A model generated the notes under the pieces. It did not search any database. It saw only the letters and a program-made list of their open reading frames with translations, and was not told the DNA's origin. Made by a program: the position numbers and the translations under genes. A DNA stretch of 64,000 bases, taken from assembly GCA_947462335.1 (NCBI GenBank), contig OX381717.1, positions 19,707,166 through 19,771,165 on the forward strand, read 5' to 3'. Below, in pieces: positions 6,841 to 38,579 of the stretch (positions are counted from its first letter, which is position 1; every line of letters begins with the position of its first letter). Source of the stretch: Harmothoe impar. Lineage: Eukaryota > Annelida > Polychaeta > Phyllodocida > Polynoidae.

Positions 6841-6846
6841 AAGCAT
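6841..6846. repeat. 6-bp target-site duplication, left copy (AAGCAT)
   Basis: AAGCAT directly precedes the left terminal AG of the element and is repeated directly after its right terminal CT at 16354-16359. A 6-bp duplication is the length made by Polinton/Maverick integrases. Confidence 0.88.
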
Positions 6847-7252
6847 AGTAGTATAGTATGTATCGGAACGGGACTATAGTTAAGTACTGTTTATTACTCA
6901 ATCGACATGCAGCCAATCAGAGGCCTCCATTTGGTCACGTGACCGGAAGTGACCTAGTTAGGGGATTAGTGGTGACGTCACGTGACCTAGTTAGCCAATC
7001 AGAGGCCGCCATTGGGTCACGTGACCGGAAGTGACCTACTTAGGGGATTAGCGGTGCATTCTGGGTAACCCTGCAGCCAATCAGAGGCCTCCATTGGGTG
7101 ACCGGAAGTGACCTACTTAGGGGATGGTGCATTCTGGGTAACCTACTGACCTACTTAGGGGACCGGAAGTGACGTCACATGACCTAATGGCCAACCGGAA
7201 GTGACCTCATTGAGGATCACGTGACCGGAAGTGACCTGATTGATCACGTGAC

Positions 7253-7264
7253 CGGAAGAAGAAG

Positions 7265-7295
<31 letters not shown>
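7253..7295 (+). repeat. (GAA)n microsatellite in left TIR
   Basis: An uninterrupted GAA run of about 13 units follows CACGTGACCG. The equivalent position of the right TIR has only about four units, so the arms differ in length here. Confidence 0.9.
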
Positions 7296-7509
7296 GACGT
7301 CACGCGACTTAATGAAGAGATGAGCGTCTTTAAGGGGTCACGGGCTTTAAAATGTGATATCTTTTTTTTTTGGAGGAGGAGGCGAGTCTCTTATTTTTTT
7401 TTGGTAAACTAATAAAAAACACCACGATATAAGTTTTTTTTTCATTTTTTATTGTTTTACGAGCGACTGGAAGTGACTTATTGAACTAGTTAGAAGCGTT
7501 CTTTAGAGT

Positions 7510-7675
7510 GTATAAGGGGGAAGGAGGGGAAGGAGGGGAGGGGAGGGGGGGAGGGGGGCCCTTTTAACATGCATGGGGAGGGGGGCGCTTTTAGGATGCA
7601 TGGGGCGAGTGGGGGAGGGGGGGAGGGGGGGGAGGGGGGCACTCTAGGGGGGGGCACTCTAAGGGGCGCGTTTGT
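7510..7675 (+). repeat. G-rich tract, G-quadruplex candidate
   Basis: Many runs of four to nine G separated by A, C or T on the + strand, interrupted by two 'gcgcttttaggatgcatgg'-like stretches. The run spacing could form quadruplexes. It is absent from the right TIR. Confidence 0.75.
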
Positions 7676-7706
7676 CTCTTTTAAGAAAGAAAAAGATTTT
7701 CAATCG

Positions 7707-7748
7707 AGAGACACGCTTCTTCCTCTCGAGAGGAAGAAGCGTGTCTCT
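7707..7748. repeat. Perfect 42-bp palindrome
   Basis: Two 21-base arms meet at the centre CTC|GAG with no spacer; each arm contains ACACGCTTCTTCC or its complement. It could extrude as a cruciform, or form a hairpin in the Death-gene 3' transcript. Present in the left arm only. Confidence 0.92.
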
Positions 7749-7916
7749 TCGTGTTTTTTTTTTGTTTATCACGTGCTGCGATGAGGCGATCAGCTGCGAC
7801 TGGAGGAAGTGACACTTTAAGAGATCGCGCGTCTTAATTGTTATGATATATATATATATATTTTTTTTTTTTTTACTTACTAATAAAGAAGACGTATGAA
7901 AATAAAACACAACAAT

Positions 7917-8666
7917 TCACATGTCCGTCGTTCTCGTTGTTTCTTGCTTGATAAAGTCAAGTAATATCGCGATGCCGAGGCCAAACTTTCCCATGTCCTC
8001 AGTCAACACTCGAAGGAGTTCAAAAGGCGTACCGCCGGCGCCGTCAGCTTCATCTTGCCACATTTTCAACACTCGGAAGGCCCACTCAGCGGGACTTCCT
8101 CCGTATTCGCATTCTTCAGCGATCTTATCTAACCTCTCAGGCGACAATTTTAAATGGTCCCCCACCTCTTTCCACCTGCTACCCAGACGTCTGCCGAGGG
8201 TGCCCAAGTGCTTATGCATCGCGCGCGAGTCGGGGTTTTCGAAATCCAACCCCTGTCTGTGGAGAAGGGCCATCCACTGAGCCAACAGTTCCATGCGTCT
8301 AATGCGGGTGAAGACGCGACCGAGCTCGCCCCATCTATGACGATGCGGGGTTTCACCCCACCACACTCGGAACATCGCCGTACACAGCTCCTCCGGTGTC
8401 TTGACACTGCGCTCTACTAGAGCATCCATACGGGCGGCGCTGACTTTTAAGCTACTGCCCAACTCTCTCCAACAGCCGCTCAACTCTTTACCTAGTTGAC
8501 GAAGCAAGGCGTCGCTATAGGCTAACCGCCGCTGTCCTACCTGTCGGGTCTCCCCATCATCGGTCTGCTGCCTCGCGCCCCGTCTCACGTCGTCAAGCCG
8601 CATTAACTTTTTTTCAGGCGCACCGGGCGGTGAAGGCGAGCTTGAAAGTGGAATAGCTTGAGCCAT
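7917..8666 (-). CDS. Tandem Death-domain protein
   Basis: A 249-residue intronless protein. After a Pro/Ser-rich start it shows two successive Death-fold domains, at about residues 51-128 and 148-228. Domain 1 has the signature core LGKELSGCWRELGSSLKVS followed by a conserved Trp (VWWGE); domain 2 has LGRRLGSRWKEVGDHLKLS followed by LKMWQDE. The 'G..W..LG..L.LS' helix 2-3 pattern plus a late Trp is typical of Death domains (FADD, TNFR, ankyrin, UNC5-type adaptors). Death domains act by homotypic assembly in apoptosis and NF-kB signalling, so a protein made of two and little else would plausibly act as a decoy or adaptor on host signalling; that role is inference. No signal peptide or membrane segment is seen. 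The ATG (context GAGATGG) follows a TATA box at 8807-8816. It is transcribed outward into the left TIR and was probably captured from a host. Confidence 0.85.
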   Translation of the reverse strand: MAQAIPLSSSPSPPGAPEKKLMRLDDVRRGARQQTDDGETRQVGQRRLAYSDALLRQLGKELSGCWRELGSSLKVSAARMDALVERSVKTPEELCTAMFRVWWGETPHRHRWGELGRVFTRIRRMELLAQWMALLHRQGLDFENPDSRAMHKHLGTLGRRLGSRWKEVGDHLKLSPERLDKIAEECEYGGSPAEWAFRVLKMWQDEADGAGGTPFELLRVLTEDMGKFGLGIAILLDFIKQETTRTTDM

Positions 8667-8679
8667 CTCGTCTCGTCTT

Positions 8680-8692
8680 GGCGGCGGCGGCA

Positions 8693-8723
<31 letters not shown>

Positions 8724-8757
8724 CGGTGGTGGTGGTGGCGGTGGTGGTGGTAGTAGC
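8680..8757 (-). repeat. GGN-repeat microsatellite in 5' leader of the Death-domain gene
   Basis: Long imperfect GGC/GGT repeat on the + strand (GCC/ACC on the transcribed strand), lying between the TATA box and the start codon, so probably within the 5' UTR. Confidence 0.8.
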
Positions 8758-8806
8758 CGTTACTGGGGTCAGAGGCGATATGTTTTTTTTCCAACAGAAA
8801 TGAGAG

Positions 8807-8816
8807 CTTTTTATAC
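8807..8816 (-). promoter_or_regulatory. TATA box of the Death-domain gene
   Basis: Read on the - strand, TGTATAAAAAGC lies about 145 bp upstream of the Death-protein ATG, giving a 5' leader of roughly 110 nt. Confidence 0.65.
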
Positions 8817-8841
8817 AGAGGGAGTTTAATCCCATTTCCAA

Positions 8842-9772
8842 CAGCGCTCCAGCTGTCTAGCGCCCTGTCCGCATGACGCTTTTTCAGCCGCTCCGCTCCT
8901 TAAGAGCTTAGATGACGAGGGGGTGTGGCATCGCTATCCGTGGAGACCAGCTGAAAACGGTGTTTTTTCCTCACTCATAGCCTTAATACCTCCTACCCCC
9001 TACCCAAGGACGTCTCCCTCCCTCTGACATTCATTGTAACAAACGTCAGAGGTCAGGTGAAAATCGGATTTTTTTTCATGCACAGCCTTAGGCAGCTGTC
9101 ACCCCTCCCTATTGAACTAGCCGGCCGCCCGCCCGCCTGGCCGGCCCGGTCTACTCACCACGGCAGGAGGTGGCGATTTTTGTCTTACACTTAAGTCGCT
9201 CACCACATGCACACGCCTCTACTCACAGACAGACACGTTCGTCTTAGGGGGGTCCTGCTTCACGCCACACGCCTCCTGTAGTTTTTTTTTGTATACACAC
9301 TGTAAGCTCATCACCGTTACCGTTAATCCTTTATACAGCTAACGCGCGCTGAATGGCTGAACAGGGTGGTAAGCGGCTTAGCTCACCACAGTGGATCCCT
9401 CAAAAAGGGATCCAGCTGAAAACGTCATACCTTATGTCTTTGTGAATGGCCGCCGCCGGTCAGTCGACGGCAGGCAGCAACCGCTTAACCCTTTATACAG
9501 CTAATGCGCGTTGAATTGCTGAACAGGGTGGTAAGCGGCTTAGCTCATCATCACAGTCGATCTCTCAAAAGAGGGGGGGGAAAGGGATCCAGCTGAAAAC
9601 GTCATGCCTTATGTCTTTTTGTTTCTCTTTGTGAATGGCCGCCGGCCAGCCGGCGGCAGCTGAACAGGGTCGGTAAGTAGCTTAGCTCTAGAAGCGAGAA
9701 GGCGTATATAAGGGGCTTGGAAACCTCCATTCACTCACTCATTCTTTTTTGCTGCTCTCTACAGTCACCACC
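8842..9772. promoter_or_regulatory. Divergent intergenic region with repeated promoter-like modules
   Basis: A 0.9-kb spacer between the divergent Death-domain and PC4-like genes. A 162-bp unit starting CCTTTATACAGCTAA begins at 9328 and again at 9490, with a third partial copy (CTGAACAGGG...TAGCTTAGCTC) at about 9660-9692. The module CAGCTGAAAAC followed by a T-rich stretch recurs near 8950, 9411 and 9590, and a weaker form at about 9055. A TATA box (GTATATAAGGGG, about 9704) lies some 70 bp before the PC4-gene ATG. This is probably the divergent promoter; the iterated units could also contain an internal control or replication element, which the sequence alone cannot show. Confidence 0.65.
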
Positions 9773-11356
9773 ATGAGCAAAAGACAACAGCTAGCGGCGT
9801 TCAAGAACAAGAAGACTACGCGGAACAGCGTTCGTTTAGCGTCAGTGCCTGCTCTTGCTACTGAACATGAGACTACCGCCGCAGCCGGTTGGTCTTATCA
9901 CCCTCCTGCTGTAGCGAGCGCTCGCGGCAGTAGTAGTAGTAGTAGTAGTAGCAGTAGCACTAGTAGTAGCAGTAGTAGTAGTAGTGGTAGTAGTACTAGT
10001 AGTACTACTGGTAGCAGTCGTCGTGCTAGCGACGTTGTTACACTCGCGACGGTACACGTTGCTGCTAAGCGCGCTGCCGCTGCTACCGCCGTCCCGCCTG
10101 CCGCTGCTGCTGCTGCTGCTGCTGCTGCTGCGCCTGCTACTGCTGCGCCTGCTACGGCTGCGCCTGCTGAGGCTGCTGCTGCGCCTGCTACTGTTGCGTC
10201 TGCTGCGGCTGCTGCTGCGGCTGCTTCTGCTGCACCTGCTGCTACTGCTACTACTACTGACGACAACGCTCCTGGCACAGCGCAGTACTGGCAACCGGGT
10301 TTTTACCTCCCCACTACTGTTGATGACTTTGATGACCTGCCGCACGTTGCACAGCCCCTCTCCTCCACCACTACATCGACGGACGCCCTCGACGCCGCTC
10401 GCGCTGAGAGTTACAGCTATTCGGACACTCAGCCCCTGAACCGAGAAGAAGAGGAGGAGGAGGAGCAGCAACAGGGTGAGACAGAGAACGACGCTGACGA
10501 CGAGGCGTACGAAGAACCCGAAGGGCAAGGGGTGAGCGGTACGTTTTTCGGCTTCCCTCTTCGACCTTTCGACCTCACTTCCTCCACTGCTAGCGCCCCC
10601 CCATCCGGTCCGTGGCGACTGCCCTCACCGCCACCTTACGAGGGCGGCGGCGGCGCTTCATCTTCTACCGCTACACACAGCACGGACGGCGTGTGGCTGC
10701 GCTGTTCCAACAACGAGACCTCCGATACCACCAGCGCTGACGCTGCTCCTGCTATCGGTTCTGCTGCTGATTCAGCTCACGCTGATGGTGTTACTCATCC
10801 TGCGGGTGTGAAACGTTCTAAGGTGAGTTCCAGAACAACAAGGCCCACTAAGAAGAGAAAAATACAAGAAAAAGAAGGAGATGGACGAGAAGAAGCAGAG
10901 AAAACACTCGGGTTAGAGTTCTGCTTAGACGGAGCTTTGACGCTGGAGATCTGGGAGGACGTGGCTAGACTGTCTAGGAGGCCGCGCTACACAAAAGACG
11001 GCCAGGTGAAAGAGGCGTCTCTGACCAGAAGCAAGCGAGTGCACTTCACGGCCGACGCGCTGCGCGAGCTCATAGCACGCATCGCCGATATCCACGCAGT
11101 GGTGCGCATACGCGACACAGCGGCCGCGCAAGGAAAACCTAATCACACCCCCTGGTTCGCAGTGCTGGATGAGGCGGGCGAAGTGTACGCAGCTGTGAGC
11201 TACTACAGCGGTAAGAACCTCGTCCACGTGCGCAAGTACGAAGGTCCTGACAAAAAACCCACACAGCAGGGGGTGACGCTGTCCGCCAGAGCGCTCAAAG
11301 AGTTGGATGACAAAACAGAGATCATTCTGAAATATCTCGGCATAGATTCGGAATGA
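9773..11356 (+). CDS. Protein with two PC4-like ssDNA-binding domains
   Basis: A 527-residue intronless protein starting at the ATG in the strong context CACCACCATGA; the open frame upstream has no earlier ATG. The N-terminal two thirds are low complexity: Ser-rich (about 45-85), Ala/Pro-rich (about 95-165) and an acidic Glu run (about 220-235). A basic nuclear-localisation-like cluster, TKKRKIQEK, lies at about 359-367. The C-terminus carries two repeats resembling PC4/p15 transcription coactivator domains. The clearer one is residues 461-522 (strand motif LVHVRKYEG, then KPTQQGVTLS and a final helix, matching the PC4 'hIReY...p.rkGIsL...W..L' pattern). A weaker one spans about 385-445 (TLEIWED ... 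RVHFTADALRELIARI). PC4 domains bind single-stranded DNA. Beside a protein-primed-type polymerase the likely role is the ssDNA-binding protein of replication, or transcriptional control; both are inference. Confidence 0.72.
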   Translation: MSKRQQLAAFKNKKTTRNSVRLASVPALATEHETTAAAGWSYHPPAVASARGSSSSSSSSSSTSSSSSSSSGSSTSSTTGSSRRASDVVTLATVHVAAKRAAAATAVPPAAAAAAAAAAAPATAAPATAAPAEAAAAPATVASAAAAAAAASAAPAATATTTDDNAPGTAQYWQPGFYLPTTVDDFDDLPHVAQPLSSTTTSTDALDAARAESYSYSDTQPLNREEEEEEEQQQGETENDADDEAYEEPEGQGVSGTFFGFPLRPFDLTSSTASAPPSGPWRLPSPPPYEGGGGASSSTATHSTDGVWLRCSNNETSDTTSADAAPAIGSAADSAHADGVTHPAGVKRSKVSSRTTRPTKKRKIQEKEGDGREEAEKTLGLEFCLDGALTLEIWEDVARLSRRPRYTKDGQVKEASLTRSKRVHFTADALRELIARIADIHAVVRIRDTAAAQGKPNHTPWFAVLDEAGEVYAAVSYYSGKNLVHVRKYEGPDKKPTQQGVTLSARALKELDDKTEIILKYLGIDSE

Positions 11357-11551
11357 GAGACGCTCAACGCTCACGCGCGCACACACACACAGCGTTTGAC
11401 GTACGCTGTATGAGACAGACAGACAGACAGACAGACGGATACACAGACAGCAGACAGAAAGATAGTTACATAGACGACAGATTGATAGATGGCTAGATAG
11501 ATAGATAGATAGTTAGACGGCTAAGTAGTTGGTAACCGAGTGAAAAAAAAC
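11357..11551 (+). repeat. GACA and GATA microsatellites between the PC4-like and PolB genes
   Basis: A CA-rich stretch, then (GACA)n around 11415-11436 and (GATA)n around 11493-11513, directly upstream of the polymerase ATG. It is the only spacer available for a polymerase promoter; no TATA box is evident. Confidence 0.8.
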
Positions 11552-14500
11552 ATGACACAGTACGTATGCGAAAAGTGTTTCAAAATGTTTAAAAGAGCGT
11601 ACAACCACGAGAGACACGTAGAAAATTGTAGAGTAGTAGCTAAGTTTTGCCCTCTATGCGGCGAAGGGGATTGCCGAAAGAGCGCTTGTCGACGCGAATC
11701 TCTGGACGGGGTGACCCTCCCTCCGCGCATATGTGCTGTACCGAACGGGGAGGAAACGTTCACGGCGAATTGGCCTGCGATACAAACGGGCGTCAGGATG
11801 CACGGGACTCGCGTGAGTGTAACAAACTTCAGGCTACCAACCGGCGAGTTGAGTGACGCTGTAGATACTATGCGTCGCATTCACTTGACACAAAGATTCA
11901 GATACAAAGTGGGTTTCTCGGTAGGCTTACTGTTACAACACAGAGAAGACAAGAGCAAACTGCGCTACTTCCACGCCTCCCAGAACAACGCAACTCTCAT
12001 ACAACCGCTCCCTACTGTAACTAATTCAGAAACTTTGGAAGAGCTCCTCTCAAAGATGCAAAACACCGTCGCTTGCGAGGAGGTACGGAAACTTTGCGAC
12101 GCTGACACCAAGTGGCACGTTCTTTTTCCTACCAATTTGAACATCTGCGTTTACATGGGACCGGGGGAATTCCCCATAGGCGGTAGGATCACTCAGGCCG
12201 GTCGAGTTGGAAAGAGAAGCGGCGTGTTAGATTTTCCCAACAAGGACAACCTCTGCATCTTCCGCTGCATTTCCTTTCACTTATACAACACCAGCAAGCG
12301 CGCTTCAGATTTGTTACGTCAGTTCTGTCCCGCTGCCACACCTGAATCCTTTCCGGGTCTGAACATCCGCGACTTACCCGCGTTAGAGAACTTGTTTGAC
12401 GTACAAATAGCGGTTTACACCGCGTCGCGTCAAGTGCCGGGGCGGAAGTTGAGAAGACGCGTTACTCTGATCAGACCGCCTTCCAGAACTGTGGCCGCCC
12501 GAGGTAAAGTCAACCTACACCTGACGGCGAAAGGCGGTTTGCACGTCTCTCTCGTCACGGACTTCAACGCGTACGCGGGCATATACGAATGTTGCAAGTG
12601 TAAGGCGGCGTTCACCACCGAGTTCTTGCTGAAGAGACACAGGAACCAGCTTTCCTCTTGCCGACAAGTCAAGTTGCGCTACGTAGGTGGCATCTACCAA
12701 AATTCGAGAACGATTTTCGAAGCGCTAGCAGACTTCTCCATTTTTCCCCCCGACGGACATTCCGGAATCTACCCTTACAAGATCGCCTTCGATTTCGAGG
12801 CTTTCTTCAGACCGTGCAAAGAACCGTCGACGGAGCACGTGTCCCTGCTGTGGGATCACGTCCCTTTGTCGGCTAGCGTCGCATCCGACTTTCCGGGGTG
12901 GGAGGGGCCCGTCTGCTTCGTCAGAGCGTCCGACGCAGATTCCGACCCCTTGTTGGACCGAGTTTTAAATCACATAAACGAGAACGCCAAAGCGATCGGG
13001 GAAGCTGTGCTAGAACTTTACCGACCGACGTTAGCGAAGTTAGATGCGGCGATAGGTGAAGCTCTCCTGCTGGAGGAGGCGACGTTCACCACCCCTTCTC
13101 CAGGCGGCTTCGCTGCGGCTCAGACCAGACACCCGTTAGTTCAACTGAAGAAGCGTCTTCTGAGATACATCCGTCAAGCTCCAGTGGTGGGCTTCAACTC
13201 GGGGCGTTACGACTTGAACCTGATCAAAATACGCCTTCACTCGTTCTTCGCCTCCGGAGACCGAAGAAACCAAGAATTCAGCGTCATAAAGAGAAGCAAT
13301 CAATACTTGGCGGTTTACACACAGCACACGGTTTTCTTGGACGTAGTCAACTATTTGGCACCCGGTTACAACTACGCGACCTATTTGCGAGCTTTCACCA
13401 GGAACGAAGAGAAAGGTCACTTTCCTTACGAATGGATGACGTCTACCAGGAAACTGGCAAACAGAACGCTGCCGCCGAGATCGGCTTTCGACAGCGAGCT
13501 GACGGGCGTCAAAATGTCCGAATCCGACTACGCCGCATGTCAGAAAGTTTGGTCCGACGAGAAGATGCAAACTATGGAAGACTACTTGATCCACTACAAC
13601 AACAAAGACGTGAAACCTTTCATAGAAGCTCTGAAAAATCACGCTAAATTTTTCCAAGATCGCGGCATCGACATGTTGAAAGACGGAGTTTCTCTCGCCG
13701 GTTTGACTTTACGCTTCCTCTTCCAAAACCTAGAAGACGCGTTCACAACGTTTCCCCAGTTCGACGCCGTCCTCCACGCTCTGATCAAAGAGAATCTAGT
13801 CGGCGGTCCTTCCATCATCTTCCATAGATTTCACGAGAAGGGCACCACGCGGATAAGGGAGCACAAGTACGGCGAAGAAGCGAGACCGTGCCAACACATC
13901 CTAGGACTAGACGCTAACTCTCTGTACTTGCGCTGCATGAGCGAAGCGCACTGCACGGGCTATTACGCGGTGAGACGGCCCGAGACCGAGTTCAAGCCCG
14001 AAATCAGGCAAAGAAACTCTCACAGCGCTTTGGAGTGGTTACGCTTCGTAGAGCACGACCGCGACGTGAAACTGCGCCACGCTCTGAACGGCGGCGAGAT
14101 GGCGGTAGGCTGTCGGAGAATTCGCGTGGACGGATTTCACGCGGCCTCTAATACGGTTTTCCAGTTTCACGGGTGTTGGTTCCACGCTCGCGAGTGCATA
14201 CCGTCGCACCGATATCAGTGCGCTTCACTGAGAGAGGAGAGACGCGACAGAACGACCAGAGTAAGCGCTTACTTGAAAGCGTTAGGTTACAAGCTGGTCG
14301 TCGTGTGGGAGTGCGAATGGCGAGAGATGAAGCGTCGAGATGAGCGGGTCAAGGCCTCCCAACAACGCTGGAAGGTTGACGCTTTGAAAGTGTCTGGAAA
14401 CGCGATGAGCGAGAGCGACATCCTTTCCGCTGTGAAAGAGGAGAAAATGTTCGGTTTAGTTCAAGTGAACATCACTACGCCGCCTCACCTACGAGAGTAC

Positions 14501-15679
14501 TTCGAAGAAATGACCCCCGTTTTCAAGAACGCGACCGTTTCAAAATCGGACATAGGCCCTCACATGTCAGACTTTGCGCAGGAAGAAAAGCTGTTGAACA
14601 CGCCTCAGAGATGTCTGATAGGGAGTTACCACGGAAAAAATATTCTCTTGGGAACGCCGCTTCTCAAGTGGTATTTAGAGCACGGTTTGATAGTCACCAA
14701 AGTGCAGCTGGTGGTAGAATACCTACCTAAACGCTCCTTTGCCGGTTTCGCGGACGAAGTGACGGCGGCGCGAAGACGTGGCGACGTGAACGAGAACGAG
14801 AAAATTCTGTCAGACTGTTACAAGTTAATGGGAAACGCTACGTACGGTAAAACAATCTGCAACAAAGAAAAACACACGGCGGTGAGATACACTGACAGTC
14901 GGAAGTTCGAACTATTGGCCAATTCGTGGCGCTTCAAAAAGGCGTCCGAGTTGACTTCCGATCTGTTTGAAGTCGAACTACAACCGAAAACGGTCAAGAA
15001 CAACCTCCCTATTCAGATAGGGTTCATGGTATACCAGTACGCGAAGTTGAAAATGTTAGAGTTCACATACGACTTCTTGGATAGATTCGTCGATCGGCGC
15101 GATTATGCCCTTTGTCAAATGGACACCGACAGTCTTTACATGGCTCTCAGCGGTGCCACGTTGGATGACCTAGTGAAACCTCGCCTGAGAGAGACGTACT
15201 TCAGAGAGAAACGAAAGTGGCTTCCGACAGCGGTGTGCGACGAGCACTTAGAGCTTTTCGTGAAGACAAAAACGGAAAGAGTGCGAGAATGGTGTGCGCC
15301 GCCCGGCGGATGTTGTGAGAGACGGTACCTTCACGATCTGAGAACTTCGGGGCTCATGAAAGCGGAGTGGGAAGGTGACGGGATCCTAAGTCTCAACCCT
15401 AAGACTTACATTTGCTACGATCGAGTCAGCGACACCGGTGAAAGAAAATCCAAAAAATGGAGTGCAAAAGGCGTACAGAAGAAACAAAACCCCCAGGAAC
15501 CAGACGCCTTCTTGGATGTTCTTCGCCAACGAAAAACTCTCATTGCTGTAAATAGAAATTTCAAAGTGGTGCGAAACAAAATGGTCACCTACACCATAGA
15601 GAAAGACGGCGTGCGCTACTTGTATTATAAGCGTCGCGTGCATTCTGACAGTGTGACAACGAGTCCTTTAGAGATATGA
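11552..15679 (+). CDS. Family B (protein-primed type) DNA polymerase with OTU-like and Vsr-like segments
   Basis: 1,375 residues, intronless and intact. Start set at the first ATG; the frame upstream offers only GTG. The exonuclease motifs are present: Exo I DFE (D414/E416), Exo II FNSGRYD (N549-D554), Exo III YNNKD (Y682-D686). So are the polymerase motifs: A, LDANSLY (D787); B, KLMGNATYG (K1091); C, MDTDS (D1191/D1193). The DNA_pol_B_2 type is used by Polintons, adenoviruses and linear plasmids, which prime from a terminal protein. The extra N-terminal part holds a C2HC finger (C6, C9, H22, C26), an OTU-like block (D232-N-L-C235 ... H331) and a second finger (C347, C350, H363, C370). Between motifs A and B lies a segment resembling Vsr/PD-(D/E)XK nucleases (FHGCWFH at 872-878, WECEW at 919-923). 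Its 3' end runs toward the right TIR. It replicates the element; a terminal protein is not separately visible. Confidence 0.93.
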   Translation: MTQYVCEKCFKMFKRAYNHERHVENCRVVAKFCPLCGEGDCRKSACRRESLDGVTLPPRICAVPNGEETFTANWPAIQTGVRMHGTRVSVTNFRLPTGELSDAVDTMRRIHLTQRFRYKVGFSVGLLLQHREDKSKLRYFHASQNNATLIQPLPTVTNSETLEELLSKMQNTVACEEVRKLCDADTKWHVLFPTNLNICVYMGPGEFPIGGRITQAGRVGKRSGVLDFPNKDNLCIFRCISFHLYNTSKRASDLLRQFCPAATPESFPGLNIRDLPALENLFDVQIAVYTASRQVPGRKLRRRVTLIRPPSRTVAARGKVNLHLTAKGGLHVSLVTDFNAYAGIYECCKCKAAFTTEFLLKRHRNQLSSCRQVKLRYVGGIYQNSRTIFEALADFSIFPPDGHSGIYPYKIAFDFEAFFRPCKEPSTEHVSLLWDHVPLSASVASDFPGWEGPVCFVRASDADSDPLLDRVLNHINENAKAIGEAVLELYRPTLAKLDAAIGEALLLEEATFTTPSPGGFAAAQTRHPLVQLKKRLLRYIRQAPVVGFNSGRYDLNLIKIRLHSFFASGDRRNQEFSVIKRSNQYLAVYTQHTVFLDVVNYLAPGYNYATYLRAFTRNEEKGHFPYEWMTSTRKLANRTLPPRSAFDSELTGVKMSESDYAACQKVWSDEKMQTMEDYLIHYNNKDVKPFIEALKNHAKFFQDRGIDMLKDGVSLAGLTLRFLFQNLEDAFTTFPQFDAVLHALIKENLVGGPSIIFHRFHEKGTTRIREHKYGEEARPCQHILGLDANSLYLRCMSEAHCTGYYAVRRPETEFKPEIRQRNSHSALEWLRFVEHDRDVKLRHALNGGEMAVGCRRIRVDGFHAASNTVFQFHGCWFHARECIPSHRYQCASLREERRDRTTRVSAYLKALGYKLVVVWECEWREMKRRDERVKASQQRWKVDALKVSGNAMSESDILSAVKEEKMFGLVQVNITTPPHLREYFEEMTPVFKNATVSKSDIGPHMSDFAQEEKLLNTPQRCLIGSYHGKNILLGTPLLKWYLEHGLIVTKVQLVVEYLPKRSFAGFADEVTAARRRGDVNENEKILSDCYKLMGNATYGKTICNKEKHTAVRYTDSRKFELLANSWRFKKASELTSDLFEVELQPKTVKNNLPIQIGFMVYQYAKLKMLEFTYDFLDRFVDRRDYALCQMDTDSLYMALSGATLDDLVKPRLRETYFREKRKWLPTAVCDEHLELFVKTKTERVREWCAPPGGCCERRYLHDLRTSGLMKAEWEGDGILSLNPKTYICYDRVSDTGERKSKKWSAKGVQKKQNPQEPDAFLDVLRQRKTLIAVNRNFKVVRNKMVTYTIEKDGVRYLYYKRRVHSDSVTTSPLEI

Positions 15680-15778
15680 AAAAAAAAAAAAAAAAAAAAA
15701 TAAGCGTGTGCATCTTTTCAAAAATAGAGTGTTTATCAAGATTGAAAAAAAAATAAATAAAAAAAAATTAAAAGAAAA
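15680..15778 (+). terminator. A-rich 3' region with AATAAA signals for PolB
   Basis: A 20-base A run follows the stop codon almost at once, and overlapping AATAAA motifs lie at about 15749-15760. Probably the polyadenylation region; the long A runs could also be slippage products. Confidence 0.6.
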
Positions 15779-16353
15779 TATTGTTGTGTTTTTATTATCA
15801 TACGGCTTCTTTTACTAGTAAGTCGCGCAGTCTCTTAAAGCGTCACTCATGTGACGACGTCGCTTCCAGTCACGGGATCCTAAACAAAAAAAAAACTTCT
15901 TCTTCTTCCGGTCACGTGATCAATCAGGTCGCTTCCGGTTGGCCATTAAGTCGTGTGACGTCACTTCCGGTCACGTGACTCATCAGGTCACTTCCGATCA
16001 CGTGATCCTAAATTAGGTCATATGACGTCACTTCCGGTCCCCTAAGTAGGTCAGTAGGTTACCCAGAATGCACCATCCCCTAAGTAGGTCACTTCCGGTC
16101 ACCCAATGGAGGCCTCTGATTGGCTGCAGGGTTACCCAGAATGCACCGCTAATCCCCTAAGTAGGTCACTTCCGGTCACGTGACCAAATGGAGGCCTCTG
16201 ATTGGCTAACTAGGTCACGTGACGTCACCACTAATCCCCTAAGTAGGTCACTTCCGGTCACGTGACCAAATGGAGGCCTCTGATTGGCTGCATGTCGATT
16301 GAGTAATAAACAGTACTTAACTATAGTCCCGTTCCGATACATACTATACTACT
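15779..16353. repeat. Right terminal inverted repeat
   Basis: Inverse of the left arm. It contains the same CCAAT, E-box, ETS-like, CRE and ZNF143-like modules and ends ...CTATACTACT. At about 575 bp it is shorter than the left arm because it lacks the G-rich tract and the 42-bp palindrome. Confidence 0.9.
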
Positions 16354-16359
16354 AAGCAT
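16354..16359. repeat. 6-bp target-site duplication, right copy (AAGCAT)
   Basis: Directly follows the terminal CT of the element and is identical to the left copy at 6841-6846. Confidence 0.88.
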
Positions 16360-19084: not shown

Positions 19085-19502
19085 AGATTTTTCCAGGTCA
19101 CTGTCTTGCGGTCCTATGTTAACATTTATTTCCTATAAGTATGGTAAACTTGTCTAAATATATTCATGTATATGTCTTTATTGATATATGTGTAAAGGCA
19201 GCATACTGCTTTAATGCACTCAACTTTATCTCATCATAAACTTATTCATGATGCATTCATGCACCCTGTCGATACCCCATGTATTGCATCGAGAGATTTT
19301 TCCAGGTCACTGTCTTGCGGTCCTATGTTAACATTTATTTCCTATAAGTATGGTAAACTTGTCTAAATATATTCATGTATATGTCTTTATTGATATATGT
19401 GTAAAGGCAGCATACTGCTTTAATGCACTCAACTTTATCTCATCATAAACTTATTCATGATGCATTCATGCACCCTGTCGATACCCCATGTATTGCATCG
19501 AT
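19085..19502. repeat. Perfect 209-bp tandem duplication
   Basis: The unit beginning AGATTTTTCCAGGTCACTG at 19085 starts again at 19294 and runs to about 19502. I see no difference between the two copies apart from the final junction, which points to a recent event. Confidence 0.92.
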
Positions 19503-20474: not shown

Positions 20475-20580
20475 CCAGGTGTGTTGCTATATAAGGAGGT
20501 GGTGGGAGCTGGAGGCCATCACTCCCACCAGACACCAGCAGAGTGGTCATCTCACCCCGACACGACACAACCCCCGCACC
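20475..20580 (+). promoter_or_regulatory. TATA promoter and 5' leader of Gly/His-rich gene A
   Basis: TATATAAG at 20488-20495 lies 86 bp before the ATG. The block from CCAGGTGTGTTGC to the ATG is almost identical to that of gene B, and its first 75 bp or so also to gene C. The predicted start site is near 20520 (CATCACTCCC). Confidence 0.85.
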
Positions 20581-23500
20581 ATGAAGCTGCTGCTCTGTAC
20601 AGCCCTCCTGGGGCTTGTAGGTAGGTGAACTGTTCCCTTGTTAAGTAACAGATAGACTATGGTTATGAAAAGGTATATATAATTAACCACAGCTTACTGG
20701 TTGGGCCAGATGAGGATGAAGCCAAAGTCGCCTACCCAGAATCCTGTTGTTAATTCTACTTACCTTTTCATAGCCTTTGTCCATCTAGCTTAAACGTCGG
20801 TATTCAATATATCCAAGGTGTAAAGCCTTTGTCTGAGGCGTCCACCGTGGGTTAAGTAGTGTAAATTCTCATGTATAACTGGCAGGTTATACGCAAACTG
20901 AACCCTTAGTGCCGGTTGTACAGTATTATCGTATTGTAGGTGAGGGTGATAAGAATCGTTTTTTTTCGGAGTATAGTACAGTAGTAGAATGGCAATTTTT
21001 AGAACCTGTGTGTAGGTTTTAGGCTAGTCACAAAGTCAAGGTGTGGGTTGTATGCGAGATACAGGTTATAGGTAGGATTTTTTGGTGGAATAATAATACA
21101 ATGTTGTGTTTAGCAGTTTCACGCTTTGACATTTGATTTAAATGCAGTCTTTCGACCTGCATGCTACATAAATGCAGCCTTGGTGAGCGATCAGCTACTA
21201 CTGAAGTCAAATATCATACAGACCTTACCCGGCTAATACACTACTTTGGTTTTGGTTTCTATCTGTTCAAGGGTCCATAGATCAAGCAGTCTTTAATTTA
21301 GCTCTTATTCTAAACACAAATTTCGCCCCCTCTCTCCTATTTTGTTCTTCTGCGCATCGAGGGATTCTGTATTTCATATTTTTTCATTTAATGTATATCC
21401 CATATATACATATAGGGTGTAGGGAAGAACTTCTAGTCGGAATGCACTTAACTTTATTCAACTTTAAAATGAGGGACAATTTGATATAGAATATGGCCGA
21501 GTAGTATTCTACATTATCTAAAAATGGAAGTGCCAAAGTGAACCTTTTCCCTTACAGCCCTGAACTACCTTGAGGCTGCTGCCATTTCCCCTCATGGTGG
21601 TTTCGGTGGCCACGGAGGATTCGGTCATGGTGGTGGTCATGGCGGTTTCGGACATGGCGGTCATGGAGGTTTCGGTGGACACGGAGGTCATGGCGGATTT
21701 GGACGTAGCGGTTTCGGACATGGCGGTTTTGGTCGGGGAGGCCATGGAGGTGGATATGGCAACAACAACCAAGGACACCATGGTGGTTTTGCCCACGGAC
21801 AAGATAGAGGATATGGTAAGTTTTATTTTGTGCTTTTGAAACTGGGCTGGTATTCTCCTGAAAGGATGTGATATTGTAAGTTCATTTAACACTGCCATTT
21901 CACACGTATTAAATGACTAAATGCAAATCAAGCTTAACAAATGCTTTATTTTCTAAATGCATTCAAAACACAGTTTATGGTTTCTATTGAAGGCGAATAT
22001 AGATATTCAAATCTTTAAAATGTAATGCAATCTTAACATGATCTGTTTTATATCTTGTGTAAAAGTTTTTGATCCCTTTGATGACAGGACACGATGGCCA
22101 TTCTGATCATGGTCATGGTGGTTCCCATGGCAACAAGGGTTACGGTCATGGTGCTCAAGGACATGGTAACGCCAAATATGGCAGTGACCACACACAAAAG
22201 GGCTACGGAGGTGGAGAGCACCACGGACATGGTCAGGCCTATGGCAACGACCACCAGAAGAAGGGATATGGAAACAAGGTATTGATATTTAGTAGCTATA
22301 AATATAAATGTCCCAGACTTGGTGGCATGTTCCGATGGAAACTAGAACTTTTTCCAATTTCTTAAGTATTATGTAAGGGTAATACTTTTGAGGCCTTGTA
22401 GAAGTGGAAGAAATGCTATGGAACAAAATCATTGTAAACAAAATGAAAGTTATATGAATCATTTAACTTTAAACAAATGGAAAATGAGGTGCTGTTTTTT
22501 TACAAATACAAAGGCATTTTCCAGTTTTGAGTTAAATGATATCATACTTGCTGTATACATATATGACAATACTACTTTCTCCCTTCTTTCTCCTATAGGA
22601 CTATGGCAGCAGCGGCCACCAGGACAAGAAGGCTTATGGTGCCCACGACCAGCAGAAGTATGGCCACTCTGACCATGGCAAGAAGTACGGAGACAGCGGA
22701 GAGAAGTATGCCGGCGGCCACAGCAAGGGCTACGGACTGGAGCATGGTACGTAATTGTAAACTCTTTATCAAACACCAAAAAGTCATTGATATCTCCTAC
22801 TGTCAATGGTAAAACCATTTCTCTCTACTATAATTTTCTGCTTGGACTATGGGCTGAGGCAGGGTACGTAACTGACCTATTCACCCATGGGCCACATAGG
22901 TCCAGAGGTCCAGAAATTGAAATTGAGATTGAAATTCATTTTAGATAATTTGTTGATACATTTCTGAAAAAATCATGCAATGTCATGGGGTTCTTAACAC
23001 CCTTTCAGCAAGTTTAATGGGACAAGGGCCCCCTTTAAATTCTTCATGGCCAATCATTTTTGTGGTATTAACCAAAGCATGTGTGTGGTTATACAGTAGG
23101 TTGTTGATCTCTTTGCAGGCTTTCAATGCTCTACTAACTGTTTTACCATATGTTAATATTTCAGGAAAGACCTATGGCACTGAGTACACCAAGAAGTATG
23201 GACATGATGATGCCTACTACTCAGGAGGTGCCCACCAGCAGCACGGTGCTGCCCACGGGTCTCAGAGCCACGGAGCCAGCGACTACGGAAAGCATGGAGC
23301 TCAGGTGAATATTCATCAATTACACTAACTGTCTAGATTTCAACTGTTATATATTTCTTATCACATTTCTATAGTTTAGGATACTATTAGCCTCTGACTC
23401 CCTCAGGATTCAGTTGTTGTAATTACATTTTTCATTTGGCAAAAGGTTCACAAACATAGGGTGCTTTTCAGCTTATGCCAAAATGAGAATAGATTGAGCG

Positions 23501-24014
23501 ATTATAATCTCATGAGTTTACTCCAGATCCTCAGAGGTGACTCTATGATGAAAGCTATGAGGATTTATTGTTTATCATAACTCGACTTACCACTATTTAT
23601 CCATTCAATTATTTCACCTTTTGGATTAAAATAAATTCTAACCTTGATTTGGCACCCTAAGAACATACACATATTTGAATAATTACAATTTGGTCAGTGC
23701 ATGAAATTAATGTATTCCTATTTTGAATGCAGGCCAACAAGGGCTATGGCTCCCACGGACATGCCAAACAGGGACACCAATCTGGTGGCCGCGACTATGG
23801 CAGCAAGCACGGTAACAGTGGTCACCATGGTTATGGCAAACAGGGACACGGACGTGGATACGGCAGTGAGAACCATGGTTACGGTCAGGGCGCCCACGGA
23901 CACAATGCTCACGGACAACAGCATGGACACGGACACTCCGCTGGGCATGGACACGGGCATGAGAGTGGTTTCGGACAGGGACACCATGGGGGATTCAATG
24001 GTGGAGGACACTAA
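20581..24014 (+). CDS. Secreted Gly/His-rich protein A (6 coding exons)
   Basis: Coding exons 20581-20620, 21558-21815, 22088-22278, 22599-22746, 23165-23304 and 23733-24014, all with GT-AG introns; the sum is 1,059 nt, giving 352 residues. Exon 1 encodes a signal peptide (MKLLLCTALLGLVA), followed by NYLEAAA and a (GFGHGG)-type array in exon 2. Exons 3-6 are rich in Gly, His, Tyr, Lys, Gln and Ser with recurring KGYG, HGHG and GYGxxxHG words. No cysteine remains in the mature part. Such compositions occur in secreted structural and metal-binding proteins of invertebrates (jaws, beaks, byssus, cuticles, shell matrix). I do not recognise a named family, so function is open. It is the first of three tandem paralogues (with B and C); its exon 2 is the longest (258 nt). 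Confidence 0.9.
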
Positions 24015-24528
24015 ACTTAGGCATTTAGGTAAATAGTGTTTTTCGGAGAAAATTTATATTAGTTGATGTAGGTGATAAAATTATCTTGAATGAGCTAACT
24101 ACCATTTCAGTAGAGGCACATTTTTTAAATCATATAGAGATGGCATTGTTATAAGTCTTCCCAGTACATGTGTAAGACATGAAACATATATGCTGAATGT
24201 AAAAAAAGTTCATACATCTGTTGTATTTAAATGTGTTTATCTTTCTTTGCAGGTTTTAGTGAATTAGTATTAGTGTAGATAGTTGTATGCATCACGTAGA
24301 ATGTTATTGGAATGCACCACGTTGGACGACTGGAACGTTCAGGACTTGCACCCCTCACGGTCAAATATCAATCACTCCAAGGTTATGAAGACGACAACCT
24401 TGACCTTGCTTAGGACAGTTGCCATGGCAACTTGATGATTGTATGTAGTGTTGTTAGAGTTGTAACCATGTGTATTTGTCATGTAGAGGGTGGGTAAAAC
24501 CCACAATAAACATGTTGTCATTATTATC
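24015..24528 (+). terminator. 3' UTR of gene A with intron, palindrome and AATAAA
   Basis: The exon continues 14 nt past the stop to 24028, an intron follows, and the last exon starts at 24253 (TTTGCAG acceptor). AATAAA lies at 24505-24510. A palindrome AGTTGCCATGGCAACT at 24417-24432 is kept at the same place in genes B and C. Confidence 0.82.
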
Positions 24529-30119: not shown

Positions 30120-30442
30120 AAGGCTCAGTCTCATGAGTTTGTAACAGTTGAAACGTCTTTGACCGGGTGTCGTCTTTGACCGGTGTAGTCTTTGACCGGG
30201 TGTCATCTTTGACCAGGTATCTTACTTCAACTTTAACCAGCTGCACTGTCCAAAGTATTATGCAATAAGAAGTCCCACCAAGTATATTACTTCATATACA
30301 TATATAATATCAAAACAAAATTGGAAAAAAAACTTTTCTAGATACCTGGTCAAAGACGACACCCGGTCAAAGACTACACCGGTCAAAGACGACACCCGGT
30401 CAAAGATGTTTCAACTGTTACAAACTCATGAGACTGAGCCTT
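30120..30442. mobile_element. MITE with iterated GTCTTTGACCGG motif, copy 1
   Basis: The left end AAGGCTCAGTCTCATGAGTT is mirrored by AACTCATGAGACTGAGCCTT at the right end. Each arm carries four iterations of a roughly 17-bp unit (GTCTTTGACCGGGTGTC) in inverted orientation around an AT-rich centre. No coding capacity. Confidence 0.85.
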
Positions 30443-30792
30443 AAGAGGTGCATATGTGGTCATGATTGTAACTCACCTGTGCTGCATTGGTGCATCATGC
30501 TGATCCTTCACGAGGGTCCGCATAATGCATGGATTCAGACCTGGTGAGTTTAAACTACTCAGCAGGGCTGCATTACTGCATCATGCCAACCGAGGGAGTA
30601 ATGTATTGTTGCCTTCCTTAAAGGGTTGAAGGCAGGGGTGATCCTATTAGGGAACACCTGTCTCTTGGTCACATGATATTTGATCTCAAAGTCGTGATAG
30701 ACCAAAAGAGTCACATAACTACAACCAAAAGAACAACACAAGAACATATCCCTTACAAAAAGCCACACCCAAATCTGACAGCATCTATGAGT
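30443..30792. repeat. Intergenic, CCCTTTAAGG-family fragments
   Basis: GCATCATG and CAGGGCTGCATT words at 30480-30620, then a block (30660-30780, CTTGGTCACATGATATTTGA) shared with upstream regions of genes A and C. Confidence 0.5.
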
Positions 30793-31163
30793 ATATGGCT
30801 GTGTCTCATGAGATTGTAACAATTTGATAGTCTTTGACCAGGTGACGTCTTTGACCGTGTGACTTCTTTGACCAGGTGACGTCTTTGACCGGGTGACATC
30901 TTTGACCAGGAAGATTAAAACAGTTGAAAAGGGGCCTATTTAGAAAGAAAAGGGGGGGGGGGGAAAGTTTATATATATTATACCACTATATATTAAACAT
31001 TTCCCGGGATTTTTGTGTACCACCAATTTAAGTTGTTTTAATCTTGCAGGTCAAAGACGTCACCTGGTCAAAGATGATACACGGTCAAAGACGTCACCCG
31101 GTCAAAGACGTCACCCGGTCAAAGACTATCCAATTGTTACAAAGTCGTGAGACTGAGCCATAT
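30793..31163. mobile_element. MITE with iterated GTCTTTGACCGG motif, copy 2
   Basis: Same family as 30120-30442: ends ATATGGCTGTGTCTCATGAG and (inverted) ATATGGCTCAGTCTCACGAC. The arms are arrays of GTCTTTGACC(A/G)GGTGAC. Flanking TA dinucleotides allow a TA target duplication. A G-run lies near 30952. Confidence 0.83.
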
Positions 31164-31513: not shown

Positions 31514-31616
31514 GGTGTGTTGCTATATAAGGAGGTGGTGGGAGCTGGAGGCCATCACTCCCACCAGACACCAGCAGAGTGGTCATCTCACCCCGACACG
31601 ACACAACCCCCGCACC
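31514..31616 (+). promoter_or_regulatory. TATA promoter and 5' leader of Gly/His-rich gene B
   Basis: TATATAAG at 31524-31531. From GTGTTGC to the ATG the sequence is essentially the same as for gene A, although the introns that follow have diverged. Confidence 0.85.
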
Positions 31617-34600
31617 ATGAAGCTGCTGCTCTGTACAGCCCTCCTGGGGCTTGTAGGTGAGTGGATTATATTTCATGGTTAATACAGACTGTCAAGGTTA
31701 AAGCAATGGGAGTATCGTATGTGAGTGAAGCGTGCAATAGCCCTCTGCCATATTGCACGCTGTATCCATATTCAACGCTCCCAGGGGTAACCATAGAGTA
31801 GCCATGGAGTTGCTACGGTACTTAGGGTCACGTGACCGGCGCGGAATTCAAAATGGCAGCACCATGGAAGTAAACAAACTCCACGGAAGTAGCCAAACAT
31901 CCCGGAAGTAACCAAACATGGACTGTAGATCTATTTTACACCAATAAACCCTGAAATGAATACAGAGCGTCACTTAAAAGTGACCTCTTCAGTGGTTATT
32001 GCACTCGTGGGAGTCCTCCCGTTCTGCACGAGGCCTGCGGCCAGCGTGCAGAACGGGAGGACTCCTACTCGTGCAATAACCACTGACTCCGTCACTTTAG
32101 CGTGCAGCTCTGTCTACATATTTGATTACAAATTATGACTTATAGTTTGAATGGGGACAGTCGGTTGCAGTCTTCAATGGGACTGAAAAACTACACACAG
32201 TAGGAGCCAAAAAACACATGCCAATGGGCACTATTTTCCATTATTTCACAGGTTTAGAAAAGCTACTATGGTTTGCAAGTATGCCAGAGTAAATATATAT
32301 ATTGCTTATGAGACTATATATCATTGTTTTATCATTAGTTATGATTGATCCAGCCAAGCCTTCATCAAGTTTAAGTAAAGAATACTAACCTTTTCAAAAT
32401 CAAACAAACGATGTACAGATATTTCTATAAGATGTCACTGGCTGATTCTTAATACAATATATTCCAAGCATTATTGTGTGTATAGTGATTGTAAATTAAT
32501 CTAAATTTGTTTCGTACAGCCCTTAATTACCTTGAGGCTGCTGCCATTGCTCCTCATGGTGGCTTTGGAGGTGGTTTCGGCCGTGGTGGGGGATATGGTA
32601 ACAACAATGGACATGGTGGTTCTGCCCATGGACAAGACAGAGGATACGGTAAGATTTCAACTACTCTTTACATTTTATCCAGGTCCTGTAGGAACTAGCT
32701 ACAGCTTCTAGTATCAATAGATATTCATACTTCATGGGTTCTCACTTCAGCCAATATCTTGTAGGCTGACATTGAATTGAGGAGTGTCAGAAATTTGCCT
32801 CAGGAATATTGTAGGGAAGCCAATATCTTCAATCAGAGTGGGGCTATTTTAGTCAAATCTTTCATGGATACTTAAATTTGTTACTCCATTAAACTAATGT
32901 TAACCCTTTCATGACAGGAAATGATGGCCGTACTGATCATGGTTATGGTGGATCCCATGGTAACCAGGGTTATGGTCAGGAGGCCCATGGTCATGGTAAT
33001 GCCAAATATGGCAGTGACCACACACAAAAGGGTTATGGAGGTGGGGAGCATCAGGGACATGGCCAGGCCTATGGTAACGACCACAAGCAGAAGGGATATG
33101 GAAACAAGGTAGGGGTGCATGTTCTACATTATTCTAGATCCTGATAATAGTATTGATGAGAGTGTTGGAATGTCTCTTTAATGGAAAAGAGGAATGTAGT
33201 TTCCCCTTAACAGCATAATTATGGTTGCACTATGTTTCATGCCTTGAATGCACATAAAATGGCAAGTCAAGTCTGAGTTGCTTCTTTTATAGTTCAATGT
33301 TGTAGATTAGTGTAGGGGATACAAAAAATGATCTGGGAAAAACCTAATTAAGTAGAAATACATAAAGATGTATTTGTTGAAGGCATTATTTTAATCATTG
33401 TCTAATTTCAGCTATTAATACGTTTATTTACCCCTCTTTTATCTTCAGGACTACGGCAGTAGCGGCCAACAGAACAAGAAAGCTTATGGTGCCCATGACC
33501 AGCAGAACTATGGCAACTCTGACCATGGCAAAAAGTACGGAAACAGTGGAAACAAGTACGCTGGTGGCCACAGCAAAGGGTACGGACTAGAGCATGGTAT
33601 GTGGTTATGAATTTTCTTAAAAGGCATTAACAATTCTCTAAATGTTTGCATTTAGATATTGCTGGATCTGTGACCAATTGATATTTGACCTTATTGTCCA
33701 GGAATTACCCCTCTAATCATTCAAACCCTCTGACTATTGAAAGTCTGTATACTTTCTTAAATACATACTTTTGATAATCTTCTCAGGCATTTTTCTCCGA
33801 AGTTCTGTGAAACAGTGATCTGCTATGATTTCCTTGTTTCCAGGAAAGACCTATGGCACTGAGTACACCAAGAAGTACGGACATGATGATGCCTACTACT
33901 CAGGAGGTGCCCACCAACAACATGGTGCTGCCCACGGCTCTCAGAGCCACGGAGCCAGCGACTATGGAAATCATGGATCAAAGGTGAGTATGTTTTACCC
34001 TATTAGGATACAAATACATCCAACTCTTTGGACAAGTTCAGCATAATGACAAAGGAAGAAGCTCATACATTTTTTTTTGGTTCTGTCATGTCTTTACAGA
34101 CAGATATGCTGTCATTAATAGGTAAATCAAAGCTTCATGTAAGTGCTAGATGCTAAGGAAAAATTCATGCACAGATAATACAAAAGTAATTCAGTAAGTT
34201 TATTCAGAATGCCGATATCCCGATTTACAAAGGAAGATTTTACAGTTATCAATGTAACATAGACAATGTATAATCCATCAAATATCCAACACTGTACCAT
34301 TGTAATTGAGTTTCCTGTCATGTATATAAACTCTGCACCATCAAACACAGGCCAACAAGGGCTATGGCTCCCATGGACATTCCAACCAGGGCCACCAATC
34401 TCATGGCCAGGACTATGGCAACAAGCATGGTAACAGCGGTCACCATGGTTACGGTACCAAGGCACAGGGCCGTGGATACGGCAGCCAGAACCAAGGTTAC
34501 GGCCAGGGTGCTCATGGACACAACGGTTATGGACAGCAGCATGGGCAGGGCCATTCTGCTGGGCATGGACATGGCCACCAGAGTGGGTTCGGACAGGGCC

Positions 34601-34632
34601 ACCATGGGGGATTCAATGGTGGGGGACACTAA
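31617..34632 (+). CDS. Secreted Gly/His-rich protein B (6 coding exons)
   Basis: Coding exons 31617-31656, 32520-32648, 32918-33108, 33449-33596, 33844-33983 and 34351-34632; total 930 nt, 309 residues. The signal peptide is identical to that of gene A. Exon 2 is the shortest of the three paralogues (129 nt): it keeps NYLEAAA and a short Gly-rich run but lacks most of the GFGHGG array. Exons 3-6 have exactly the same lengths as in A and C (191, 148, 140, 282 nt), and the splice phases (1, 1, 0, 1, 0) are the same. The composition is Gly/His/Tyr/Gln-rich without Cys after the signal peptide. Role as for gene A: a secreted structural or metal-binding protein by composition only. Intron 1 contains a foldback element (31962-32113). 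Confidence 0.9.
31962..32113. mobile_element. Foldback element inside intron 1 of gene B
   Basis: Inverted arms from ACAGAGCG...AAAGTGAC to its partner ending CTCTGT. The inner 31990-32085 is a near-perfect hairpin whose arms begin CAGTGGTTATTGCAC and continue through GGAGTCCTCCCGTTCTGCAC, closed by a roughly 14-nt spacer. Confidence 0.8.
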
Positions 34633-35285
34633 ACTTAGGCATTTAGGTAGGTTAATCCAGTAAAGATTACCAAGTATATCTCTTATAATTGTGTTTTTTA
34701 AATTTACTGGAAACATTATGTATGTCAATGTAATCAATGTAGCTATCATGGCAAAGGAGAAAGCAACCCTTTCAGAACAGTAAAACTTTGTAGATCAAAT
34801 AACAATGGTAGAGATCATTATGATGAGTTTTAGTAATACAAGTAGCCCAGTCATAATATGAATACGTCTTTTTTCAAATCTGGCCATGAATAAATGAAAA
34901 AGCTTTAGCACCTTCTGACTTTAAACAATAATAGTATCATTCACAAATATTAAAAAATCTTTTCCTGAGTTTACATCTTAATAATTGTATCTAATTGTCA
35001 TATTTTTTTAACTTGCAGGTTTCGGTGAATTAGCATTAGTGTAGATAGTTGTATGCATCACGCAGAATTTTGCTGGAATGATCCGCGCTGGACGACTGGA
35101 ACGTTCTGGACTTGCACCCCTCAAGGTTAAATACCTATCACTAAAAGGTTATGAGGATGATGACCTTGATTAGGACAGTTGCCATGGCAACTTGATTGTA
35201 TGTAGTGTTGTTAGAATTGTAACCATGTGTATTTGTCGTGTAGAGTGTGGGTAAAACCTGTAATAAACATGTTCCCTATATTCTG
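34633..35285 (+). terminator. 3' UTR of gene B with intron, palindrome and AATAAA
   Basis: The exon ends 14 nt after the stop (34646) and the last exon starts at 35019 (ACTTGCAG acceptor). The palindrome AGTTGCCATGGCAACT is at 35177-35192 and AATAAA at 35262-35267. Confidence 0.82.
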
Positions 35286-38460: not shown

Positions 38461-38579
38461 GCCCAGGTGTGTTGCTATATAAGGAGGTGGTGGGAGCTGG
38501 AGGCCATCACTCCCACCAGACACCAGCAGAGTGGTCAGACAACCGACGGACAACGGACGGACGACACAACTCCTGCACC
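38461..38579 (+). promoter_or_regulatory. TATA promoter and 5' leader of Gly/His-rich gene C
   Basis: TATATAAG at 38476-38483 within the same 75-bp block as genes A and B. The leader diverges nearer the ATG (a CGGACGACA-rich stretch). Confidence 0.85.

Follow-up and report, generated by a model that had tools for sequence, protein, structure and literature searches.

Here we ask whether a compact Polinton (Maverick)-like element in the polynoid annelid Harmothoe impar is a remnant of a full-sized element or a reduced form that still replicates. The element lies in a stretch of 64,000 nucleotides (contig OX381717.1 of assembly GCA_947462335.1, positions 19,707,166 to 19,771,165 of the forward strand; hereafter the window) and carries three genes, coding for a family B DNA polymerase (PolB), a PC4-like protein and a Death-domain protein. 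Our data suggest that it copies itself and borrows other parts from full-sized relatives. Specifically, we hold with moderate confidence that it is a Polinton-derived, self-replicating but integration-dependent element, a satellite or a segment, that has lost the ATPase, integrase, capsid and protease genes downstream of PolB.

Ends and gene content of the element

The element proper spans 6847-16353 (9,507 bp; Table 1), and the interval 6841..16359 given in a first-pass annotation of the window includes the 6-bp duplication AAGCAT on both sides. It starts with AGTAGT and finishes with ACTACT, i.e. (AGT)2//(ACT)2, which is described as the commonest end motif of vertebrate Mavericks/Polintons, with 6-bp target-site duplications (TSDs) as the usual Maverick signature (PMC8097293). 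Both Polinton/Maverick hallmarks, a 6-bp TSD and terminal inverted repeats (TIRs) with AG/AGT...CT/ACT ends, are thus present, and the size, the AG...CT ends and both duplications of the first-pass annotation were verified together with their coordinates. When 6-mers were drawn at random, one from each flank, the two were identical in 11 of 20,000 draws, so chance would not be expected to place a flawless duplicate right at the two ends, and the reading of AAGCAT as a TSD and not a fortuitous repeat holds. The terminal 20-mer, allowing up to three mismatches, has two matches in the window, both exact, at the element ends and in opposite orientation (mean of 0.00 matches in 100 shuffles). The joined flanks, used as query for a paralogous empty site within the window, gave seven short matches (25-57 bp), all to the right flank and none crossing the junction.

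The two TIR arms are identical over the first 110 bp, and a local alignment of the outer arms has 410 identical positions, 8 mismatches and 43 columns with gaps. They constitute the sole inverted pair of at least 150 bp reported for the window (354 nt at 98%) by a repeat finder that can miss repeats with insertions or deletions. The sequence at 7268-7860 is largely G-rich and GC-skewed and has little counterpart in the right TIR. Further inwards, 28 of 34 positions are identical between 7808-7841 and 15814-15847 (the best of 60 block-shuffles gave 23), and homology resumes once more at 7875-7916 / 15780-15823, which makes the TIRs longer than was thought when they were first recognised as matching. 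This innermost match stops 1 bp short of the stop codon of the Death gene and still ends at 7916 when the left sequence is lengthened to 8700; on the other side, the right TIR comes to an end roughly 100 bp away from the stop codon of PolB.

Four short motifs were counted in the TIRs (taken as 6847-7360 and 15841-16353), the interior (8,480 bp) and the flanking sequence (54,481 bp). CGGAAGTGAC occurs six times in each TIR and is absent from interior and flank, while TCACGTGA is present five and six times in the TIRs, not in the interior and once in the flank. Three copies each of TGACGTCA and GCCAATCA are found per TIR, none in the interior, and two and one, respectively, in the flank. We take CGGAAGTGAC, TCACGTGA, TGACGTCA and GCCAATCA to be ETS-, E-box-, CRE- and CCAAT-like sites, in that order, and they may act as promoter or regulatory sites.

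Three uninterrupted open reading frames (ORFs) of 249, 527 and 1,375 amino acids (aa) correspond to the three intact intronless genes that had been annotated. In total, 11 ATG-started ORFs of at least 60 aa overlap the element, and the eight besides the main genes are at most 119 aa long. These leave no room for ATPase, protease and major or minor capsid genes, nor a place for an rve integrase, which comprises 360 aa in the fuller relative L001 (see below); intron-split genes were not modelled. The first-pass annotation had come to the same conclusion. Between the Death and PC4-like genes, which diverge, lie 1.1 kb that a single ATG-started ORF of at least 60 aa overlaps. This ORF has 73 aa, so neither an integrase nor a capsid gene fits there; the region is probably a bidirectional promoter. 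Scans for tRNA genes and Rfam families gave no matches.

Table 1. Positions in the window of the element, its ends, genes and predicted protein segments
Feature	Coordinates	Strand	Basis or remarks
TSD AAGCAT, left	6841..6846		
Whole element, 9,507 bp	6847..16353		TSD, end motif and TIRs
Left TIR	6847..7916	+	Outer well-matched part 6847-7267, then ~0.5 kb largely left-only and G-rich, inner matches 7808-7836 and 7875-7916
82-bp tandem units, left TIR	6909..7125		
Death-domain protein, 249 aa, two Death domains	7917..8666	-	Pfam Death
Intergenic region between divergent Death and PC4-like genes	8667..9772		Direct repeats 9323-9388/9485-9550 and 9404-9444/9581-9621
PC4-like protein, 527 aa	9773..11356	+	N part long and of low complexity; PC4/Pur-alpha-like region, probably tandem, at C-terminus
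Protein-primed-type PolB (predicted), 1,375 aa	11552..15679	+	Exonuclease and polymerase motifs
Putative OTU-like segment of PolB, between invariant C235 and H331	12254..12544	+	17-row alignment
Vsr-type endonuclease insert of PolB (predicted), limits approximate	14096..14386	+	Family profile, PHROG
Right TIR	15780..16353	-	Arm comparison
82-bp tandem units, right TIR	16075..16289		Same motifs in TIR
TSD AAGCAT, right	16354..16359		

The polymerase and the accompanying proteins

Motifs, family assignment and modelled fold agree with the original prediction that PolB is of the protein-primed type. Pfam DNA_pol_B_2 matches above cut-off (E 4e-7), and the residues of the exonuclease and polymerase motifs are invariant in 17 aligned relatives. 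The structural model covers residues 176-1375 and is of good quality (mean pLDDT 86.9), and the OTU-like segment falls inside the modelled part. A fold search of the PDB gave phi29 polymerase as the best match (E 1e-10; TM 0.33 by query and 0.63 by target) and phi29 polymerase complexed with terminal protein at rank 2. Among viral models, densovirus-named and adintovirus polymerases matched best and a bidensovirus PolB came at rank 8. The OTU-type Cys and His positions, C235 and H331, are invariant in the 17 aligned PolB rows and delimit a putative OTU-like segment; Polinton polymerases are described as carrying an OTU-like protease besides a terminal-protein domain (PMC11071308). A Glrx-like Pfam match in PolB was below cut-off and taken as spurious.

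A Vsr-like segment is located at about residues 849-945, where E. coli Vsr structures are matched by the PolB family profile (E 3e-7) and the phrog_13076 endonuclease is matched by the window PolB when used by itself (residues 866-942, E 1e-5). Pfam Vsr matches five of the 17 aligned PolBs, and the window PolB is not one of these five. Residues E849, D860, G874, C875, H878 and C882 of the Vsr-like motif are invariant in all 17, and we assume that these six correspond to Vsr catalytic and zinc residues. The Vsr-like insertion is reported to mark group I Mavericks (PMC10328495), and on this sequence feature the window PolB is classified as a group-I Polinton polymerase.

The 249-aa protein matches Pfam Death in two stretches (E 9e-8; 32.5 bits against a cut-off of 22.6 bits), in keeping with the tandem Death-domain protein proposed at the outset, and no other domain reaches the Pfam cut-off. 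Pfam Death also matches all four aligned members of this family (4/4), and the two halves of the protein weakly resemble the Death domains of FADD and RIPK1. Neither this nor the PC4-like protein has a match in PHROGs, and scanning the viral_contigs collection with the Death protein gave no relative.

For the 527-aa protein, the model suggests a probable tandem PC4/Pur-alpha-like region at about residues 379-527 (10907-11353). Pfam PC4 matches in one stretch (E 1.3e-4; 21.8 bits, below the 25-bit cut-off), the doubling of the four-strand-plus-helix repeat comes from a low-confidence model and fold comparison, and phmmer against the PDB returned low-complexity matches only. Where the first-pass annotation spoke of a tandem PC4-like protein, a PC4-like region is supported and its tandem nature is probable. 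The protein is likely DNA-binding.

With these proteins the following cycle can be proposed. PolB would start DNA synthesis at the TIR ends, primed by its own terminal-protein part, and the displaced single strands would be coated by the PC4/Pur-like protein. Host factors acting on the ETS-, E-box- and CRE-like TIR motifs may drive or regulate the element. Since no effector domain was recognised in the Death protein beside its two Death domains, it might serve death or NF-kB-type signalling as a decoy adaptor; a role in promoting death or in NF-kB signalling would be equally testable. Integration with a 6-bp duplication would depend on an rve integrase provided in trans by a full Polinton and recognising the same AGT...ACT ends. 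We infer both that the integrase is borrowed and that the Death protein interferes with death signalling, while packaging in helper capsids would be possible but is unsupported.

Relatives and probable origin of the element

A scan of genome_contigs identified one distant locus, L001, out of 59 stretches. L001 (QGON01000029.1, 1-11769) is an 11,769-bp contig filed in the metagenome-assembled genome (MAG) of a symbiont of the tubeworm Escarpia laminata; it has most of the Polinton gene set and is probably host contamination in the bacterial MAG. Its PolB is 35% identical to the window PolB and has the Vsr-like insert as judged by alignment. After PolB and on the same strand follow Adeno_IVa2 (ATPase-type), rve plus Chromo (integrase, 360 aa) and a weak Peptidase_C5 match below cut-off. 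The further ORFs of L001 had no family match, including one of 437 aa, whose product also lacked Pfam and PDB sequence matches and which, by its position relative to the gene order of Polintons, is a putative capsid protein. No TIR was found in L001. Because its PolB adjoins ATPase-, integrase-chromodomain- and protease-like genes, loss of the block after PolB is the likely origin of the window element. What it seems to have kept of a Maverick/adintovirus-type Polinton is a TIR, the region upstream of PolB with two extra (accessory) genes, and PolB itself, with another TIR closing it off.

Relatives of the three proteins were identified with a search that detects sequences sharing short exact words, and given this, other PolBs may well have Death or PC4-like partners that are too distant to be picked up. 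For PolB, 575 of 5,818 candidates passed E 1e-3; among the best 120 of these 575, the three highest-ranking ones share 99, 77 and 67% identity with the window PolB over residues 380-1375 in local alignment (76% for P0002 and 65% for P0003 in full alignment). The Death protein has three relatives among 775 candidates (95, 75 and 57% local, 96, 76 and 49% full alignment) and the PC4-like protein one among 1,347 (76% local, 72% full alignment). Between relatives, identity is 69% for the PolBs P0002 and P0003 and 53% for the Death proteins P0122 and P0123.

The first-pass annotation had suggested a PolB tree as a check. We computed one using FastTree with midpoint rooting, based on 85 rows, i.e. 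83 of the first 90 PolB matches (seven shorter than 1,100 aa were dropped), the window PolB and L001; long branches or an unusual composition occur in some rows, and the window row is among those of unusual composition. The window PolB clusters with P0001, P0002 and P0003 (support 100), and this group adjoins P0004-P0006 and P0031 (support 100). The contigs of P0004 and P0006 measure 17,632 and 16,628 bp, respectively. Eight PolB motifs were found in six of six among P0001-P0006, and P0031 lacks one of them.

As all three genes have relatives at about 75% and the PolB relatives group at full support, a lone dead copy is hard to square with the data. That each of the three genes has relatives, at comparable distances, and that genes and TIRs join tidily argues that the element is more than a dead deletion. 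The distinct minimal lineage envisaged at first therefore survives in part: the genes are not one-off (every one of them is matched by a relative of about 75% identity, PolB and Death by a more distant one as well), and the relatives may likewise lack capsid and integrase genes. More tentatively, and with somewhat less than even confidence, we propose a long-lived animal lineage of three-gene Polinton satellites or segments that have their own polymerase and single-stranded DNA-binding protein, manipulate death signalling and need full Polintons for integration and perhaps spread, comparable to a virophage-like parasite of an integrating virus.

Several observations weigh against a self-replicating satellite or segment. 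L001 begins near its PolB, so the upstream side of that PolB lies outside the contig. Because the TIR arms differ in the mismatches and gap columns given above, this copy may not be recent. Moreover, the one PC4-like relative has just 371 aa and is without about the first 150 residues, and the PolB, Death and PC4-like relatives are paired as single elements only presumptively, since they sit on different contigs.

We regard it as unlikely that the window element is a simple internal-deletion copy, in which case full relatives would carry the Death, PC4-like, PolB, integrase and capsid genes and the window copy alone would have lost the distal half, like ordinary non-autonomous derivatives. The block missing here is what comes after PolB in L001, and accessory genes around the core are described as normal in vertebrate Mavericks (PMC8097293), both of which fit a deletion. 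However, the element is tidy, with TIR homology ending close to the stop codons of Death and PolB, and no remnant of a further gene could be made out, by eye and position, in ORFs of at least 60 aa (the eight small ORFs were not searched against families). In addition, the longest contig is 9,882 bp for the 99% PolB cluster P0001 (31 members) and 9,859 bp for the 67% relative P0003, which is near 9.5 kb and suggestive only.

We find it improbable that the element is one segment of a multipartite virus-like element, the other segment having the same TIRs and carrying integrase and capsid genes. The bidensovirus PolB among the viral fold matches and the replication- or host-directed appearance of all three genes would agree with this, but no second segment was seen: in viral_contigs the terminal 20-mer has no exact match and the PolB scans gave no relative. 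That the element is autonomous and integrates by the Vsr-type nuclease of PolB or by a host enzyme is very improbable in spite of the invariant Vsr-like motif, as Vsr nicks at mismatches and L001 has an rve integrase as well as the insert. Furthermore, the insert is reported as general to group I Mavericks (PMC10328495), and 6-bp TSDs are the usual Maverick signature (PMC8097293).

As to the Polinton-derived, integration-dependent element that we favour, its ends, its polymerase and integration in trans as a concept are known already. In open-licence PMC literature, among the matches listed, we found neither PolB, PC4/Pur-like and tandem Death proteins together without virion and integration genes, nor 'death domain' or 'PC4' in Polinton, Maverick or adintovirus papers. 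If the lineage is real, it would represent a Polinton replication module separated from the integration and virion modules and offer a natural setting in which to test whether integrase and capsids are supplied in trans. It would also add a Death-domain protein and a probable Pur/PC4-like single-stranded DNA-binding protein to the Polinton world.

Elsewhere in the window, a 1,975-bp direct repeat with sharp edges (42550-44524 and 50930-52904; 99.7% identity, 8,380 bp apart) is either a recent duplication or a long-terminal-repeat-like element. Three diverged copies of a unit with Gly/His-rich ORFs are located at about 20478-24403, 31514-35169 and 38466-41340, and the two of these ORFs tested had no Pfam match. 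A BTB-BACK-Kelch ORF (57764-59116) and a Kelch ORF downstream of it (59595-60125) are probably one gene, which, like the Death-domain gene, points to an animal host. There is also a 209-bp perfect tandem duplication at 19085-19501, and a 17-bp GTCTTTGACC-type unit forms four arrays in both orientations at 30154-31126.

Comparison with known systems

The element resembles group I Mavericks/Polintons in its (AGT)2//(ACT)2 ends, 6-bp TSD, TIRs, uninterrupted ORFs and protein-primed-type PolB with a Vsr-like insert, and in having extra genes between TIR and PolB. It differs in size, 9.5 kb compared to the 12.7-24.6 kb spanned by intact vertebrate Mavericks (PMC8097293), and in having no room for integrase, ATPase, protease and capsid genes. 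With adintoviruses it would share an OTU-like motif in the N part of PolB, which is putative here, and its PolB matches adintovirus PolB by fold. However, hexon and rve-chromodomain integrase, which are included in the adintovirus definition (PMC11071296), are absent from the ORFs of the element. As a parallel to the Death protein, candidate oncogenes and/or homologs of anti-apoptotic genes are reported for the majority of adintoviruses associated with mammals (PMC11071296).

The likeness to bidnaviruses lies in the PolB fold, with densovirus-named polymerases leading the viral matches and bidensovirus at rank 8. In contrast, the window element, where alone this was checked, has no room beside PolB for the NS1 helicase or parvovirus VP, and its PolB keeps the OTU Cys and His that are described as replaced in bidnavirids (PMC11071308). 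Finally, integrase-less integrated Polinton-like viruses (PLVs) are, like the window element, integrated without an integration enzyme. PLVs are known by their capsid genes, through which they were found, and most are described as lacking pPolB (PMC11071308), whereas the window element is the reverse; for integrated PLVs, it has been proposed that the integrases of resident Polintons act on them in trans (PMC4642659).

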